Positions 31,565 through 42,681 of a stretch of DNA of 64,000 bases are shown piece by piece (position 1 is the first letter of the stretch; the number at the start of each line of letters is the position of its first letter). The notes under the pieces are model-generated. The model saw nothing but the letters and a program-made list of their open reading frames with translations. It did no database searches and had not been told where the DNA came from. The position numbers and the translations under genes were made by a program. Origin of the DNA: Streptomyces milbemycinicus (GTDB lineage Bacteria > Actinomycetota > Actinomycetes > Streptomycetales > Streptomycetaceae); contig NZ_MUNE01000127.1 of assembly GCF_002154605.1 (NCBI RefSeq), forward strand, positions 62,001 to 126,000, in the 5' to 3' direction.

Positions 31565-31789
31565 CCCCAACCCCCTGGCAGTCAGTAGACCGCGGCCCAT
31601 TCCCCTGGGACGCGTCCGCATAATGACACAGAGCGCTGACAGCGAGGCCGGCTGGGTGGACGGTGTGGGCGCGCCACCCTTTCTCAACTGGCCAACTGAA
31701 GCACTCAGTCACAGCATTCCAGCTGCCGGGGGCGAGGAATTTCGCATCCTACGAGGGTCGGGCCCTGCTGCCCTGGCTCAGGGAGGATT

Positions 31790-31978
31790 TTGAGCCCGGT
31801 GAGCCTGTCCATCACCGACCCCACCCATGCGGCCGCGGCGGCAGCCGGCCGGGCGGCAGCCCGACAGCGGCCGGTGCCCGCGGACCAGCTGGAGGTCGAG
31901 CAACGGCCCCTGGAGACCTACGACCGGATCTTCGGCGTCATCGACGGCGGACTGACCACAGGCGAAGGAGTCGCGTGA
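31790..31978 (+). pseudogene. IS21 IstA-type transposase, C-terminal tail
   Basis: About 60 residues ending RPLETYDRIFGVIDGGLTTG-EGVA before a TGA that overlaps the istB ATG (ATGA). The position and coupling match the istA/istB arrangement of IS21 elements, but the integrase-core portion is absent. Upstream (31690-31790) no clear IstA frame is seen, so the element is 5'-deleted. Confidence 0.6.
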
Positions 31979-32637
31979 TGTCCCCGACCAGCAGCAACAG
32001 CACGAAGTCCGCGAAGAGGGGCCGCGACGTCACCTCCGAACTGATCTATCTCACCAAGGCGCTGAAAGCCCCGGCTCTGCGGGATGCTGCCGGCCGGCTG
32101 GCCGAACGGGCCCGGTCGGAGGAATGGAGCCACGAGGAATACCTCGCCGCGTGTCTGCAGCGGGAGGTTGCCGCCCGTGACAGTCACGGGGCCGAGGGCC
32201 GTATCCGGGCTGCCCGTTTCCCCTCCCGCAAGTCGATCGAGGACTTCGACTTCGACCATCAGCGGTCGATCAAGCGGGAGACGATCGCCCACCTGGGCAC
32301 CCTCGACTTCGTGGTGGGCAAAGAGAACGTGATCTTCCTGGGGCCGCCGGGGACCGGGAAGACGCACCTGGCCACCGGTCTGGGGATCCGGGCCTGTCAG
32401 GCCGGTCACCGGGTCGCGTTCGCCACCGCCGCCCAGTGGGTCACTCGCCTCGCCGAGGCCCACCTGGCAGGCAAGCTCAGCGACGAGCTCACCCGGCTCA
32501 GCCGGATCCCGCTGATCGTGGTGGACGAGGTCGGCTACATCCCCTTCGAACCCGAGGCCGCGAACCTGTTCTTCCAGTTCATCTCCGGCCGCTACGAACA
32601 CGCCTCCGTGATCGTCACGAGCAACAAGCCCTTCGGC
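31978..32637 (+). pseudogene. istB: IS21 helper ATPase IstB, 5' part (split gene)
   Basis: About 220 residues from ATG 31978: an N-terminal helical domain, Walker A GPPGTGKTHLATGLG (near residue 122), Walker B LIVVDEVGYIPFEPEA, and VIVTSNKPFG. The coding sequence breaks at 32637 right after Phe-Gly. The missing C-terminus (RWGEVFGDDTVAAAVIDRLV) is found at 36279-36431 in the same orientation. A 3.6-kb element therefore interrupts the gene. Joining the two pieces gives a continuous ORF of normal length. Confidence 0.9.
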
Positions 32638-32691
32638 AAAGCGCACATGTTCCGGCGAACCCGTGCGAGGCGGTGCCTGAACAGCAAAGGT

Positions 32692-33066
32692 TCAAGCGGA
32701 GGGCGAGACCGTTGTGGCCACCGCATCGGGGATCAACGCGATCAGCTGTTGAGACCAGCAGTCCGACTGCTGGGTGGCGACGTCGGCTCCGCAGGCATCG
32801 CAGACGAGGTTGGGGCCGTCCAGGCCATCGAGGCCGCAGCATCCGTTGAGGCGCCCACGGTCAGGGTGTCTGGTCACTCCCGAGACGTCGTCGGGATTGA
32901 GGATGAACACGCCAGTGTGAGGGCTGATCGCATACGACCCATGCGGCATCAGCGGTGGCAGGAACCTGTGTCCCGGGGCTTCCTCTGTCACCGGCGGCGG
33001 CATCGGTACTTCCCGGAGGTGGGGGCTGATTCGTTGCTGACAGGCGATGCAGGAGAAGACGGCCAT
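32692..33066 (-). CDS. Cys-rich conserved hypothetical, element cargo
   Basis: A 124-residue protein with paired Cys motifs: MAVFSCIACQQRI at the N-terminus and GCCGLDGLDGPNLVCDACGADVATQQSDC in the C-terminal half. It also has RFLPPLMPHGSYAISPH and VFILNPDDVSGV segments. The same small protein type occurs widely in Streptomyces without a known role; the cysteines suggest a zinc-binding fold. It is transcribed in the same direction as the recombinases but sits at the far end of the element, which fits a passenger gene. Confidence 0.72.
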   Translation of the reverse strand: MAVFSCIACQQRISPHLREVPMPPPVTEEAPGHRFLPPLMPHGSYAISPHTGVFILNPDDVSGVTRHPDRGRLNGCCGLDGLDGPNLVCDACGADVATQQSDCWSQQLIALIPDAVATTVSPSA

Positions 33067-33101
33067 GGCCGCAATTCTGCGTGATTCCCTGATGCTGTCT
33101 C

Positions 33102-34742
33102 CTATCTTTTCCGGCTCGGCTCCGAGGCCGGGAGACGTCCCTCGTCGACGCGGTCGGCGAGGTAGATCAGAGTGGCCTGCGGGTCCATGCCGAAGGCGGC
33201 GGCGACGAGCTTGGGGTCCAGGGTGTTGACCAGGCCGAGGAGGCGGGTGCTGCGGATAGTCCGTGGCGGGTGTCCGCAGTCGTCAAGGACGTGGGAGAGA
33301 TAGGCAGTTGAGGCTGGGTTCCGCCCGGCCTTGGTCCCTTTGGTGACCATCACGTGGGGGTTGGTCGTTGGCCAGGCCTCGCGGTGGGCTAGGCAGCGTT
33401 GCAGGACCGTCCAGGAGGCGGGATCCAGCGGGACGGGATGGGGCCGCTTGCCGAGCCGGACCGTCTGGGCCGCCGCGTCGATGTCGGCGATCTGCAACTG
33501 CCGCACCTCCGTGCTGGAGGCGCCGTGCAGCAGAGCGAGCATGCCGAGCAGAGCCTCGTGCGGATGGACGCGTTTGTCGGTCGTCCAGCGGCGGAAGAGC
33601 TCGCGCTGCTGGTCGAGGGTGAGAGTGCGGCCGCGGAAGCCGTTCGGCTCCTTCACGATCAGAGTGCGGGTCGGGTCGACCAGCACGAGGTGATTGGAAC
33701 GGGCGAAGCGGAAGAACTGCCGGAGTACCACGAGCCGGCGTTTGCGGGCCTTGGGCACGGTGGCGAGGAAGGTTTCGACGTCGTGCACGTCGGCCAGGGC
33801 CCAGTCGTCCTTGCCGCGCTGCTCGACGAGGAAGCAGGCCAGGTCGCGCAGGATGCTCAGGGCGGTTTCCAGGGTGTGGTCGCTGCGGGGGCGAGTGCCG
33901 GCCCGGCGGGCCCGGTCCTGGGCCCGCATCCGGGAGGCGTCGAACGCCGTGACGGCCAGCCGCAGGGGCACGGGAACGGCGTCGATGCGGCGCTGGCGCC
34001 GCCCGGCGGCGAGCCGTTCGGCCTGGTCGGTGGGCAGGGCCAGGCCGCGGAGGGTGAAGAAGTCCTCCAGTGCGCGGGCGAAAGAACCCATCGACCGTCC
34101 GGGCCTGCGGGATCGCTCCAGCAGGGCCTGGGGCGAGTTGGAGTGCTCGTCGTTCAGGAGCCGGCCCAGGTCGGTGACGAGGCCGCAGGCCCGGGCGACG
34201 CAGAAGCGGGCCGCGACATGCGCGACGTAATCGGCGAGCCACACGGGCGGATCGGCGAGCACTTCGCGGAGGTTGTCGCCGCGGATGAAGGGCCGGCCGG
34301 GATGCCTTTGCCAGCAGGCCGAGCACAGACCCAGCCCGGCATGCCGCCGCAGTCGGCCGCACTCGCGGCAGACCTGCGGTGGCTGCTTCGGCGGACCCGG
34401 ACGCGAGCACGAACCGCACCACCCGGTGTCCTCCCGCACATAGCCAAGCTTGCCGCAGCGCGGGCAGGGCTGTTGGGCGGCGAGCCGCTCGGCCTTGCGG
34501 CGGCAGTCTCGGCACAGCCGGTTGACAGCCGCGCGCACCGGATGGCCGCACTGGTCGCACACGCGTGAGCAGGTGATGCACCGGCCGGTGTCCGCCTGGA
34601 GCACCCGGTCCTTGCCGCAGGAAGGACAACTCGCCTTCGTGGTCTGCTCTTTCAGCTGACGCCAGCACCGGCAGCAGTACAGGCGGTCGCGATAACCGAC
34701 CGGCCCGCCGCAGCTGACGCAGTCCCGTTGTCTCTTGCCCAC
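33102..34742 (-). CDS. Tyrosine-recombinase-like protein with zinc-ribbon array (TnpB-like)
   Basis: A 546-residue protein. The first ~150 residues hold about ten Cys-x2-Cys knuckles (CVSCGG, CPSCGK, CITCS, CDQCG, CPRCG, CGSCS, CRECG, CSACW). Then comes a core-binding helical domain and a recombinase catalytic domain (LLGMLALLHGASSTEVRQLQ, ADIDAAAQTVRLGKRPHPVP, LIYLADRVDEGR). The usual box-I Arg (GLR) reads ASS and the box-II HxxR is not apparent, though a C-terminal Tyr remains. It may therefore be a non-catalytic partner that recognises DNA, as in multi-recombinase elements. Downstream of the XRE gene by 15 bases. Confidence 0.8.
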   Translation of the reverse strand: MGKRQRDCVSCGGPVGYRDRLYCCRCWRQLKEQTTKASCPSCGKDRVLQADTGRCITCSRVCDQCGHPVRAAVNRLCRDCRRKAERLAAQQPCPRCGKLGYVREDTGWCGSCSRPGPPKQPPQVCRECGRLRRHAGLGLCSACWQRHPGRPFIRGDNLREVLADPPVWLADYVAHVAARFCVARACGLVTDLGRLLNDEHSNSPQALLERSRRPGRSMGSFARALEDFFTLRGLALPTDQAERLAAGRRQRRIDAVPVPLRLAVTAFDASRMRAQDRARRAGTRPRSDHTLETALSILRDLACFLVEQRGKDDWALADVHDVETFLATVPKARKRRLVVLRQFFRFARSNHLVLVDPTRTLIVKEPNGFRGRTLTLDQQRELFRRWTTDKRVHPHEALLGMLALLHGASSTEVRQLQIADIDAAAQTVRLGKRPHPVPLDPASWTVLQRCLAHREAWPTTNPHVMVTKGTKAGRNPASTAYLSHVLDDCGHPPRTIRSTRLLGLVNTLDPKLVAAAFGMDPQATLIYLADRVDEGRLPASEPSRKR

Positions 34743-34757
34743 CGCAGTCTCCGCCGG

Positions 34758-35072
34758 TCACAGGGGCGGCATCGACCGGCCCCGAGCAGAGACGGCCTGC
34801 GGGAGATCGGCGATGGGCCGGGGCGGTGCGGCGGGCCGCTCGACGGGGGTGGTGTCGACCTCGATCAGGTCGCTCGGGGTGCACTCCAGCGCGGTGCACA
34901 ACGCGGCCAGGGTGGTCATTTTCACCTGCGAGGGCTCCTTGGTGAACAGCGCGGACACCGACGCGGAGGACAGTTCAAGGCCGGCCTTCTCAGCCAGTAG
35001 TCGGCGCAGCTCGGTGCCGGTCCACACCTCGCGCTGGGCAGCGGCCATCCGCAGCCGCCATCGGATCTTCAT
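34758..35072 (-). CDS. XRE-type HTH protein of the element
   Basis: A 104-residue protein from ATG 35072, overlapping the recombinase stop by four bases. It has a helix-turn-helix of Cro/C1 type (GTELRRLLAEKAGLELSSAS, VSALFTKEPSQVKMTTLAAL, CTALECTPSDLIEVD) and a Pro-rich tail. Translational coupling to the recombinase genes implies a role in their control or in forming the synaptic complex. Confidence 0.85.
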   Translation of the reverse strand: MKIRWRLRMAAAQREVWTGTELRRLLAEKAGLELSSASVSALFTKEPSQVKMTTLAALCTALECTPSDLIEVDTTPVERPAAPPRPIADLPQAVSARGRSMPPL

Positions 35073-36139
35073 GCCGTGGTGTCCTTCTCGGTCAGCTCGG
35101 CCAGGGTGCCGGCGACGGCCCGCTGATAGGCGTCCTCGATGAACGTCGCGGAGGGCCGGACATAACGCATGGTCGAGCTGACCGTCCAGTGCCCGAGCAT
35201 CTGCTGGATGGCCACCAGGTCGACGCCGCGTTCGTAGTTGTGGGTCGCGCATGCCCTCCGCAGGGCATGCGGGCTGAACCGCTCGGCAGTCGGGCGCCCT
35301 TCGAGCTCCATCAGATAGCGCAGCCGGTTACGGATCGTTCCACGATGCAGGCTGCCGCCGGACTCGTCGGCGAACAGTACCGGCGAGTCTGGGAACTTGG
35401 GCCGCACGTCCTCCAGGAACCACCGCAGCACCAAGTCCAGGCCGTCGAGCATGGGCACCCAGCGCGGCCGCGGCCCAGAGGTGTGGGCTCCCTTACCGAA
35501 GCGGACGTGCAGCTTGCCGAACGGGCCGCGGCTGAAGTGCGCGTCCGGCTTCTCCAACAGCGATGCCTCCTCCGACCGAAGCCCGGCGTGATACAGCGTC
35601 CGGAACAGCGCATAGTCCCGGGCTGCGGGTCCGTACTTTCTCGCGGTGGCAATCCGCTGCTTCATGAAGTCGAAGAACTCCGTCACCCGCTCCGGTGTCG
35701 GCGGCGGCACCAGGGCCGGCGAGTCGTCGCCGACATGCCGGGAGGCGTTGAACTCGTCAACCGGGCAGACCAGCCGGGCACCGAACGCGGCCTCGATCTC
35801 GGCTGCCTTGCGGGCCTGCAGGAACCGGTGGAACCCCTTGAAGATCTGGACGTACTCGCGCCGGGTGGAGGTCGCCCGGCCCTTCACCGCCAGGTCACCG
35901 ACCACGCGGTCGATGTCCTCCGGCGTCACCTCCCACGCGGGCCGACCCAGCGCGGCCAGTGCCCGTTCGAGCAGGCCGATGTCGTTGTCGATGGTCACAG
36001 GGCTGAACCCGCGGGCCCGCCACGAGGCGACGAACGCATCGACACACGCGGCCTGGAACTGCCACGGATCCGTCGTCAGCGGCTCCTGCGGGACGACCCC
36101 ACCCGCGATGACCTGGAGTCTCGCCTCGGCCACCGGCAC
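35069..36139 (-). CDS. Tyrosine recombinase/integrase (TnpA-like)
   Basis: A 356-residue site-specific recombinase with complete catalytic residues: Arg in YHAGLRSEEASLLE, a Lys turn in FGKGAHTSGPRPRWVPM, His291-x2-Arg294 in SPHALRRACATH, His317 in QQMLGHWTV, and nucleophile Tyr326 in TMRYVRP. The N-terminal SAM-like core-binding domain spans about residues 25-115. First gene of the element's leftward operon. It should be able to cut and rejoin the element ends. Confidence 0.92.
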   Translation of the reverse strand: MPVAEARLQVIAGGVVPQEPLTTDPWQFQAACVDAFVASWRARGFSPVTIDNDIGLLERALAALGRPAWEVTPEDIDRVVGDLAVKGRATSTRREYVQIFKGFHRFLQARKAAEIEAAFGARLVCPVDEFNASRHVGDDSPALVPPPTPERVTEFFDFMKQRIATARKYGPAARDYALFRTLYHAGLRSEEASLLEKPDAHFSRGPFGKLHVRFGKGAHTSGPRPRWVPMLDGLDLVLRWFLEDVRPKFPDSPVLFADESGGSLHRGTIRNRLRYLMELEGRPTAERFSPHALRRACATHNYERGVDLVAIQQMLGHWTVSSTMRYVRPSATFIEDAYQRAVAGTLAELTEKDTTA

Positions 36140-40355: not shown

Positions 40356-40556
40356 TCGCCACGGCACAGCTCCGGCACACTCCAGCATTGCCCTCGATGG
40401 GGATCGGCCCCCGGATCTCGAAAAGGCCATGGCCGCTCGGGTGTGCTGCAAGGATGAGCAGACCGCGGTCGAGGAGCCCCTCGGCGGCGCGTCGATTTGT
40501 CGTGCCCGTAGCTTGGTCACCCGCGGGCGTGCTGATCCGTCAGAGAGCAGGCGACG

Positions 40557-41054
40557 ATGGATAACGGCTTCGAACTCCGGAGAACTGACGGAAAAGGGGA
40601 AGGCGTTTTCGCCACCCGGCCCTTCCTGATCGGTGAGACGGTGATGGTTGGTGTCATCGACTGTGAACTGGACCGCAACCACTCCCACGCCTCCCAGGTC
40701 GGTGCGGAACGTTTCGTGTTGCACGGCGGGCTTGTCCCGAAGGTGAACCACTCGTGTGAACCGAATTGCGGGATCCGCCTCAATTCCAGCGGCGCTCACG
40801 ACTTCGTCGGCCGCGCACCCATCGCCGCCGGTGAAGAGATCACCTTCGACTATGCGATGCGGAACTACTCGGTTGACCACTTCGCCGCCCGCTGCCGGTG
40901 CGGCTCGCGCCACTGCCGCGGCCGCATCACCGGTTGGCAGGATCTACCGACCCAACGCAAAGCGGACTACTACGGCTTTGTTGCCCCCTACCTCATCGAG
41001 ATCGACGACCAGGCCCACACAGACCTGTCCGCCCGCCGAGACCACCGCAGCTAA
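40557..41054 (+). CDS. SET-domain protein (lysine methyltransferase candidate)
   Basis: A 165-residue SET protein. It has the N-terminal [18 protein letters not shown] strand, the SAM-pocket motif NHSCEPN (64-70), the pseudoknot GEEITFDYA (92-100) with the catalytic Tyr99, and a post-SET zinc site C-x-C-x4-C (Cys113, 115, 120). All elements for SAM-dependent protein lysine methylation are visible. It is compact, like other bacterial and viral SET proteins. It is followed by a strong terminator and then by an rpoA paralogue on the same strand. Substrate unknown; any link to RNA polymerase is inference. Confidence 0.85.
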
Positions 41055-41128
41055 CCCGCCCGGCACCTCGCTGACCAGGCACTCCTGCTCACCGTTCAAT
41101 CCTGCGTAAATCTACGCCCCCCCGAGCC

Positions 41129-41162
41129 GGGTGGTGCGGCCTCTTGTGAGGCCGCACCACCC
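41129..41162 (+). terminator. 15-bp perfect hairpin between SET gene and rpoA
   Basis: GGGTGGTGCGGCCTC, loop TTGT, then the exact complement GAGGCCGCACCACCC. It should end SET transcription 75 bases after its stop. rpoA then needs its own promoter in the short 41163-41218 region, or relies on read-through. Confidence 0.75.
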
Positions 41163-41218
41163 CTATCCTTGCCGTGCCGCATCAAAGAGCGGGCACCGAA
41201 CATCGGAGGCACCACCTC

Positions 41219-42232
41219 ATGCTGATCGCTCAGCGCCCGTCTCTCACCGAAGAGGTCGTCGACGCATACCGCTCCCGGTTCGTCATCGAGCCGCTGGAGC
41301 CGGGCTTCGGCTACACCCTCGGCAACTCCCTGCGCCGCACCCTCCTGTCCTCGATCCCCGCCGCTGCCGTCACCAGCATCCGGATCGATGGCGTGCTGCA
41401 CGAGTTCACCACCGTGCCCGGCGTCAGGGAGGACATCACCGACCTCATCCTCAACATCAAGCAGCTGGTCGTCTCCTCCGAGCACGACGAGCCGGTCGTG
41501 ATGTACCTGCGCAAGCAGGGCCCCGGCCTGGCCACCGCCGCCGACATCGCCCCGCCGGCCGGTGTTGAGGTCCACAACCCCGACCTGGTCCTGGCCACCC
41601 TCAACGCCAAGGGCAAGCTGGAGATCGAGCTGACCGTCGAACGCGGTCGCGGCTACGTCTCCGCCGTGCAGAACACACAGCAGGGCCAGGAGATCGGCCG
41701 GATCCCGGTCGACTCGATCTACAGCCCGGTGCTCAAGGTCACCTACAAGGTCGAGGCGACCCGTGTCGAGCAGCGCACCGACTTTGACAAATTGATCGTC
41801 GACGTCGAGACCAAGCCGGCCATGCACCCGCGCGACGCCATCGCGTCGGCCGGCAAGACCCTGGTCGAGCTGTTCGGTCTGGCCCGCGGGCTCAACATCG
41901 ACGCCGAGGGCATCGACATCGGCCCGTCCCCCACGGACACCGCCCTCGCCTCCGACCTCGCGCTGCCGATCGAGGAGCTCGAGCTCACCGTCCGCTCGTA
42001 CAACTGCCTCAAGCGTGAGGGCGTCCACTCGGTGGGTGAGCTCGTGGCTCGATCGGAGGCGGATCTGCTCGACATCCGCAACTTCGGTGCGAAGTCGATC
42101 GACGAGGTCAAGGCGAAGCTGGCCGGCATGGGCCTGGCTTTCAAGGACAGCCCGCCCGGATTCGACCCCATTGCTGCCGCCGACGCCTTTGGCGCCGGCG
42201 ACGCCGGGTTCGTCGAGACCGAGCAGTACTGA
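41219..42232 (+). CDS. rpoA: RNA polymerase alpha subunit, orphan paralogue
   Basis: A 337-residue full-length alpha subunit with GGAGG 9 bases upstream of ATG. The N-terminal dimerisation domain begins [20 protein letters not shown] and contains [20 protein letters not shown]. The C-terminal domain has the DNA-contacting [17 protein letters not shown] and [20 protein letters not shown]. All conserved elements are present and no lesion is seen. The housekeeping gene sits between rpsD and rplQ; here neither flank is a ribosomal gene, so this is a second copy. From memory it is very similar to the normal Streptomyces protein with scattered changes (for example [10 protein letters not shown] and [12 protein letters not shown]). 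It should compete for assembly into polymerase. Confidence 0.95.
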
Positions 42233-42375
42233 CAAGGTGGTTCGCGAGGTTCGGCGCTGGCGGGGCACGAGCCGCCAGGGACCGGCGTTCGGCACCGCAG
42301 CCACGGCAGCAGGCGGTGAACAGCACGGCCACCGGTGGCCGCCGGGCGAGCCGGTAACGGGGTGCCGTCGACGAC

Positions 42376-42681
42376 GTGGTCCATGACGGAGACCAGGTCC
42401 TCCTACGGCTCGGCGAACCGCCATCCCCGGTCCCCGCCCCGGTCGCCGATCTCCTGCTCAACCGGATCGGCAACCGGGACAACATGAACACCGCGACGAA
42501 TGGCGATTCGCGCTGGCTTTTCCCCGGGCGCCGGGCCGGACAGCCGATGCACCCCGACGCGCTCGCGGCGCTGGTCAACAGCCTCGGCATCCCCACCGTC
42601 GCAGGCCGGGCCTCCGCCATCGGCCAGCACGTCCCCTCCGCGGACTGCAGGTGCACGGCATGGATGCCAGCCACCGCCTGA
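42376..42681 (+). pseudogene. Integrase/recombinase C-terminal fragment
   Basis: Reads VLLRLGEPPSPVPAPVADLL, NRDNMNTATNGDSRWLFPGR, RAGQPMHPDALAALVNSLGI, a stretch typical of a Streptomyces transposon-linked tyrosine recombinase just ahead of its catalytic HxxR block. The rest is lost or frame-shifted after about 42610. Remnant of another recombinase-based element. Confidence 0.65.

Follow-up and report, generated by a model that had tools for sequence, protein, structure and literature searches.

The occurrence of a complete rpoA gene away from the ribosomal protein genes of Streptomyces milbemycinicus raises the question of whether this is the housekeeping gene in a new position or a second gene for the alpha subunit of RNA polymerase and, in the latter case, where it came from and what keeps it intact. 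The gene lies in a 64,000-nucleotide stretch of contig NZ_MUNE01000127.1, hereafter called the window. Alpha starts polymerase assembly, represents a main contact for activators and is usually taken as single-copy. According to the available text of a pan-proteome study, rpoA belongs to the conserved core genes of Streptomyces (PMC13118837).

The window gene was described in the first-pass annotation as an intact, full-length orphan rpoA with its own ribosome-binding site, and this description holds. Translation gave 337 codons with zero internal stops, preceded at 9 nt by GGAGG (Table 1), and the protein matched the Pfam families RNA_pol_L, RNA_pol_A_bac, and RNA_pol_A_CTD, each above the curated cut-off; that is, the dimerisation, insert, and C-terminal domains of the RpoA class are all present. 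Probing the 21-kb stretch around the gene did not retrieve any match to rplQ or rpsD within 10 kb on either side. The missing rpsD is not diagnostic of a non-operon rpoA, because rpsD lies beside only five of the 90 operon rpoA loci (L001, L004-L032, and L102-L161, L010 and L102 being one locus); rplQ accompanies all 90 (the operon loci were picked by rplQ or rpsD beside rpoA), and 84 of the 90 have an rpsK-like end motif just upstream.

Table 1. Features in and around the rpoA gene of the window.
Feature	Coordinates	Strand	Remarks
SET-domain gene (lysine methyltransferase-like)	40557..41054	+	Pfam SET; directly upstream neighbour of the extra rpoA
Unit of leader, gene and about 30 bp	41080..42262	+	~88.7% nucleotide identity to plasmid rpoA of Streptomyces sp. 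NBC_01243 and others
Perfect inverted repeat	41129..41162	.	Arms of 15 bp and a loop of 4 nt; directly precedes the -10 element
TATCCT, probable -10 element	41164..41169	+	Assigned from its letters
Leader	41170..41204	+	Includes the counterpart of the leader hairpin of operon copies
GGAGG ribosome-binding site	41205..41209	+	9 nt before the ATG; read from sequence
Extra rpoA (alpha subunit)	41219..42232	+	337 aa, ATG start, TGA stop; from the open frame, Pfam domains and alignment with the operon copy

The genome (11.6 Mb in 1328 contigs) yielded two matches to the alpha dimerisation domain. The second rpoA lies on contig C435 in the order rpsK-rpsD-rpoA-rplQ (genes named from translations), and the rpsD and rplQ of this operon locus were the queries for the neighbour searches. 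Thus, the search for another rpoA, on which the earlier proposal of a probable paralogue depended, returned a second copy and the proposal stands; the alternative of a relocated housekeeping gene was rejected, since the operon copy exists in the same genome. The two proteins share 310 of 340 residues with three gaps (91%). One rpoB and one rpoC domain match were found; a second rpoB or rpoC partner was rejected on this result, and any second polymerase would share its large subunits with the first and be distinguished by alpha.

Among solved structures, the window protein comes closest to chain 7vpd_A, which aligns with its residues 1-337 and whose sequence is identical in 7x75 and others; 7x75 represents the S. 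coelicolor RNA polymerase, according to the available part of PMC10936776. This operon RpoA of Streptomyces has the same domains as the window copy, which, unlike it, has a separate promoter-leader and no rplQ. With domain boundaries that we set ourselves (N-terminal domain, NTD, 1-229; tail, residues 311-340), the 24 residues differing or missing between window and operon alpha fall in the NTD (14), the linker (3), the C-terminal domain, CTD (2), and the tail (5). Linker and tail are the fastest parts of the window copy (17% of positions changed in both), followed by the NTD (6.1%) and the CTD (3.2%).

A second rpoA was then looked for across the genus. At least two rpoA matches, together with a full-length best match, were present in 64 of 392 Streptomyces genomes, this one included (with a cut-off of E<=1e-20, 390 of the 392 gave any rpoA match); scoring was limited to five candidates per genome, and the single-copy counts may be slightly too high. 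The second matches in the 64 are near full length, and the one in G242 carries a stop; G279, with four partial pieces, is within the 64 and has its loci outside the fetched set, and G047 has no fetched operon copy. In 19 genomes the best match was weak, and by our own count the same gene part was doubled in 16 of them, the other three (G075, G198, and G375) having no doubled part. In G317 and G333 the pieces of both copies end at the same codons with runs of N between them; the fetched stretches of G295, G339, and G350 are free of N. The broken genes of these weak genomes likely result from the collapse of identical middles during assembly. A second rpoA is therefore carried by 64 and, with the fragmentary cases, by up to 80 of the 392 genomes. 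The statement that alpha is single-copy in Streptomyces is correct for the majority of genomes and fails for the 64, and a rare single event does not fit this distribution, nor the presence of the gene on plasmids. In practice, rpoA is unsafe as a single-copy marker in Streptomyces, and a second copy may explain the assembly breaks inside rpoA in some genomes. The record of G350 consists of a single contig (C1, loci L260-L263), in which the 5' and 3' parts of two rpoA genes are scattered over four sites far from one another; both genes are broken at identical codons with no N in the fetched stretches, which suggests either a joined draft or a real rearrangement between the copies.

Outside Streptomyces, two of 177 genomes from a class-wide draw (G431 and G451) had a second match at E<=1e-40. 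A pattern scan of species genomes for the leader found 82 stretches, and the 80 listed all belong to Streptomyces, Streptomycetaceae, or 'Actinobacteria bacterium OV320' records; the scan is evidence of spread inside the genus and not of absence elsewhere, because the pattern was built from Streptomyces copies. A phage origin was rejected: among the matches listed (10 of 23 phage records), none exceeded 80% identity.

Altogether, 69 extra-copy loci were fetched from 62 genomes, which with the window copy makes 70. Among these, rpsD accompanies none and rplQ one, L037 (contig C73 of G142). This copy has an extra-type leader and, less than 200 bp downstream, an rplQ 85% identical to the operon rplQ; on another contig of G142, an rpoA start follows an rpsK-like end. 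On chromosomes, using contigs longer than 6 Mb, 20 of 38 extra copies and six of 38 operon copies lie in the outer 15% of the contig (two genomes are counted twice, and some records may not start at the chromosome end). G254 has two identical extra copies, mirrored, about 609 kb from either end. Moreover, 21 Streptomyces plasmid records carry an rpoA with 86-94% protein identity; the 12 places examined in 12 of these records are all open frames of 335-341 codons, with leaders that we judged by eye to be of the extra type. In two plasmid loci (L244, NBC_00724, and L247, NBC_01240), rpoA is preceded by the same series of genes, namely MerR, HTH, single-strand-binding protein, and a small gene, and the NBC_01240 plasmid has a terminal-protein gene about 1.2 kb downstream of rpoA. 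Plasmids from other genera gave hits as well.

Apart from rpoA itself, no gene family recurred in more than eight of 69 extra loci (L037 excluded; flanks of about 7 kb, open frames filtered crudely). A shared neighbour or an antibiotic cluster was rejected on this count, and the antibiotic response suggested earlier for the window gene finds no support in it. The same lack of widely shared neighbours is in keeping with a passenger, i.e., a gene hitch-hiking on plasmids and chromosome arms with little benefit and remaining intact through recent transfer and repair by conversion from the operon gene. We consider this unlikely on the whole, for reasons that emerge from the comparison of extra and operon copies.

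For this comparison the set comprised 70 extra and 89 operon copies, giving 66 pairs of an extra copy and its own operon copy from 61 genomes; L037 was placed among the extra copies and the G142 pairs were left out. In the dN/dS, residue, contig-position, hairpin, inverted-repeat, TACCCT, leader-tree, window-segment, window-run, and window-ranking figures, L037 still stands among the operon copies. When full genes were compared, the nearest of the 89 was that of the same host in 42 of the 66 pairs (with shuffled labels, a mean of 0.70 and a maximum of 5 in 1000 shuffles). Taken alone, this would agree with each species having recently duplicated its operon rpoA on its own, the leaders being alike since an operon promoter was copied each time. 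This explanation is, however, very improbable, because the two ends of the gene behave otherwise: in 64 of 66 pairs the leader resembles a foreign extra copy more than it does the operon copy of its own genome, the last codons (311-345) are nearer to a foreign extra copy in 62 of 65, GTG is the start codon in 56 of 70 extra copies and in none of 90 operon copies, and the leader tree requires only five changes between extra and operon labels. A promoter-leader that is similar across species and does not track the operon copy also argues against the passenger, as does the length of the extra copies, 68 of 70 having 337-348 codons; in its favour are L101 (G242), with an in-frame stop, and L100, which is short.

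Segment by segment, the own operon copy was best or tied among operon copies in 28, 26, and 35 of the 66 pairs for codons 1-40, 41-80, and 81-120, in 37, 38, and 38 for codons 121-160, 161-200, and 201-240, and in 17 and 16 for codons 241-280 and 281-310, falling to four of 65 for codons 311-345. Against the best foreign extra copy, the own operon copy was about even in the middle (23 wins and 26 losses for codons 121-160, 25 and 24 for both 161-200 and 201-240) and lost at the ends (seven wins and 51 losses for codons 1-40, three and 62 for 311-345). The signal in the middle is thus not one-sided, and for many pairs (24 of 66 when the entire gene is taken) some other operon copy is nearer than the own one. 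Label changes on the trees were 25 for codons 1-100, 55 for 101-200, 30 for 201-280, and 12 for 281 to the end; part of the 55 may reflect a lack of signal, since the middle codons are strongly conserved. Long identical runs reached p<0.05/66 (4000 permutations) in 22 of 66 pairs, versus two of 89 controls at p<0.0012 (each operon copy and its nearest foreign operon copy, 1000 permutations). At p<0.05 the test was passed by 52 of 66 pairs and 29 of 89 controls, which implies that it is inflated. The simplest reading of these sequences would be an old family with ends of its own, whose middle has been replaced from the operon gene in many genomes. The leaders of L057, L061, and L084 are operon-like or mixed, as if conversion tracts had crossed the start codon. 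Such conversion from the operon gene would also suit the passenger.

The window copy, which shares its ATG start with 13 others of the 70 extra copies, appears to be one of the less converted. Its identity with its own operon copy is 0.915 (rank 18 of 90), and in nine segments its own operon copy beats all others in codons 81-120 only; a possible conversion tract at codons 74-115 consists of a single run (p=0.003, uncorrected). The best matches of its leader are plasmid leaders (76-78% over about 100 nt); with plasmids left out, the best extra leader stands at 0.64, the best operon leader at 0.62, and its own operon leader at 0.52. In the leader tree it falls, on a long branch, within a supported set of 63 extra and two operon-labelled rows. 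We thus assign it an extra-type leader with moderate confidence. By score, the nearest coding sequences are operon copies of other species (91.2%), its own operon copy being 17th and the best plasmid copy 22nd after itself, both at 90.7%. In the coding tree the supported sister of the window copy is L099, an extra copy of G191 (98*); ranked by path length, four plasmid copies come first, followed by L099. As the coding score favours no plasmid, the link of the window copy with plasmids rests on the leader, the tree path, and the neighbours.

Selection on the gene was claimed at the outset, and the dN/dS of 0.132 between window and operon copy, indicating purifying selection, bears this out. 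Extra copies versus their own operon copies gave a median of 0.138 (range 0.046-0.535), extra copies of different genomes a median of 0.111, and operon copies among themselves a median of 0.026. The constraint on extra rpoA is thus relaxed but purifying. The relaxation (medians of 0.111-0.138 against 0.026) would suit the passenger; the window copy, little converted and still at 0.132, would not. It has substitutions at otherwise almost invariant residues (e.g., E16A, G48A, V105A, R203H, and E224G), which could represent decay.

Around the window gene, the region 40416-41064, which includes the SET-domain gene, has a counterpart with 90% identity on a plasmid of Streptomyces sp. NBC_00057. We regard this gene as a neighbour and at most as a candidate member of the unit; as a partner of the extra rpoA it was rejected, a SET-domain gene being near the extra rpoA in two of 70 copies, window included. 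L059 has a 75% identical relative in the vicinity of its extra rpoA, on the opposite strand. Farther upstream, the stretches 33102-36139 and 31663-33084 contain two tyrosine-recombinase-like genes on the minus strand, one of them with a weak match below the cut-off, plus an IstB-like gene; the stretch of this integrase pair, 33.1-36.4 kb, is 84% identical to a third plasmid, a Streptomyces plasmid carrying two integrases. The portion from 6 to 25 kb has many frames resembling acyl-CoA dehydrogenase, short-chain dehydrogenase, enoyl-CoA hydratase, and thiolase (named by eye), similar to a catabolic cluster. A repeat search did not return convincing repeats marking insertion of the unit at 41080-42262, and no Rfam element was found in 40900-42400 at E<=1.

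Regarding the promoter-leader itself, the GGAGGCA context of the ribosome-binding site is present in many other extra copies and in plasmid copies, and TACCCT occurs within the last 110 nt before the start in 84 of 91 members of the operon set (which still includes L037) and in 49 of 69 extra copies. Visual inspection showed a GGGCGGTNCGG..CCGNACCGCCC repeat similar to that at 41129-41162 ahead of many rpoA genes of both the operon and the extra type; perfect arms of at least 9, however, were limited to 22 of the 91 operon leaders and 12 of the 69 extra ones.

As for the protein, the extra alpha might be a specialised one of the Francisella type, which shifts the choice of promoters by preferring a heterodimer or by forming a polymerase of its own. 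Recurrent C-terminal changes in the extra copies (I269V in 55, V276L in 31, and A307G in 32 of 69) point in this direction; the window copy has V269, the CTD signature of the family, where operon copies have I269 at a frequency of 0.99. In the tail of the extra copies, moreover, 19% of positions depart from the operon consensus, against 0.5% among operon copies. The NTD, on the other hand, is the slowest part of the extra copies, with only 1.8% of positions differing (6.1% in the window copy), and a slow NTD with a fast tail fits a subunit that must still assemble. Furthermore, E252, R259, K265, R266, R287, and K292, described in the available part of PMC10936776 as the AfsR interface of the S. 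coelicolor alphaCTD, are unchanged in the window copy and in all 69 extra copies, so that the altered activator contacts imagined for this gene are not borne out at these residues. The patchy presence implies, in addition, that the extra alpha is not obligatory. On balance, a specialised alpha seems doubtful, more so than the passenger.

The intact frame, the distinct promoter-leader of the family, the relaxed purifying selection, the plasmid relatives, and the mosaic structure, all read from sequence, are the ground for the reading that we favour and regard as reasonably probable: an old, horizontally mobile accessory rpoA family in Streptomyces, providing a separately controlled extra alpha that enters the ordinary RNA polymerase. 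Promoter, leader, and coding sequence would travel as a unit on plasmids and chromosome arms, and the gene would be transcribed from its own promoter. The product, 91% identical to the operon alpha in a genome with one beta and one beta' gene, would dimerise with itself or with the operon alpha, and the dimer would enter the ordinary polymerase. The host might benefit from alpha being supplied under separate control, or from the slight difference of this alpha in its C-terminal region, and overwriting would keep the gene body matched to the host beta and beta'. For the window copy, leader and neighbours suggest plasmid descent, with overwriting limited to, at most, the short tract at codons 74-115. 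A bolder version is that of a transmissible alpha that inserts itself into the host polymerase, its body tailored by recombination and its promoter and C-terminal end its own, and adjusts the transcription of host or plasmid. This is speculative, and we would rank it only slightly above the passenger; if true, it would represent a mobile core-polymerase subunit maintained by concerted evolution.

Duplication of a polymerase subunit gene has a parallel in actinomycetes such as Nonomuraea, where rpoB is duplicated. The two cases are alike in that a second RNA polymerase subunit gene is kept in one genome; they differ in the subunit, in the single rpoB match found here, and in that no link to a drug was seen. 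The parallel with Francisella drawn at first holds for the presence of two different rpoA genes in one genome (alpha1 and alpha2) and fails in most other respects. According to the available text of PMC3294249, the duplicated rpoA occurs in all sequenced genomes of that genus, whereas here it is found in 64 to 80 of 392; the Francisella pair arose by a lineage-specific duplication with accelerated evolution, and its heterodimer is needed for efficient assembly, whereas the window alpha is 91% identical to the operon alpha. Unlike the Francisella genes of that source, the extra rpoA of Streptomyces also occurs on plasmids, and many bodies appear to have been overwritten from the operon gene. 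In the open-licence literature, no paper describing a second, duplicated, converted, or plasmid-borne Streptomyces rpoA was among the matches listed; the two-rpoA case of Francisella is thus known there, and for the mobile, converted second rpoA of Streptomyces we found no description. An alpha that is patchy, plasmid-borne, and still evolving would offer a natural test of whether the composition of the core polymerase varies within a cell, the more so as Streptomyces is noted for its antibiotics and its intricate regulation.

Finally, a small RNA hairpin was observed in the last 75 nt of the operon rpoA leaders, immediately ahead of the ribosome-binding site. Its loop motif is present in 86 of 91 operon leaders (a set including L037 and the doubled locus L010, with kinship ignored in the count); the inner six pairs are standard in all 86, and at pairs 3 and 5 both partners change together (G-C/A-U). 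The loop was found in 32 of 69 extra copies, with the six pairs in 28 of the 32; in the window leader (41170-41204), inspection by eye indicated that the operon-type hairpin does not form in the standard register. The only Rfam matches in L001 were the L17 leader, a known element, ahead of rplQ and a weak one inside rpoA. The operon hairpin possibly represents an undescribed rpoA leader element.
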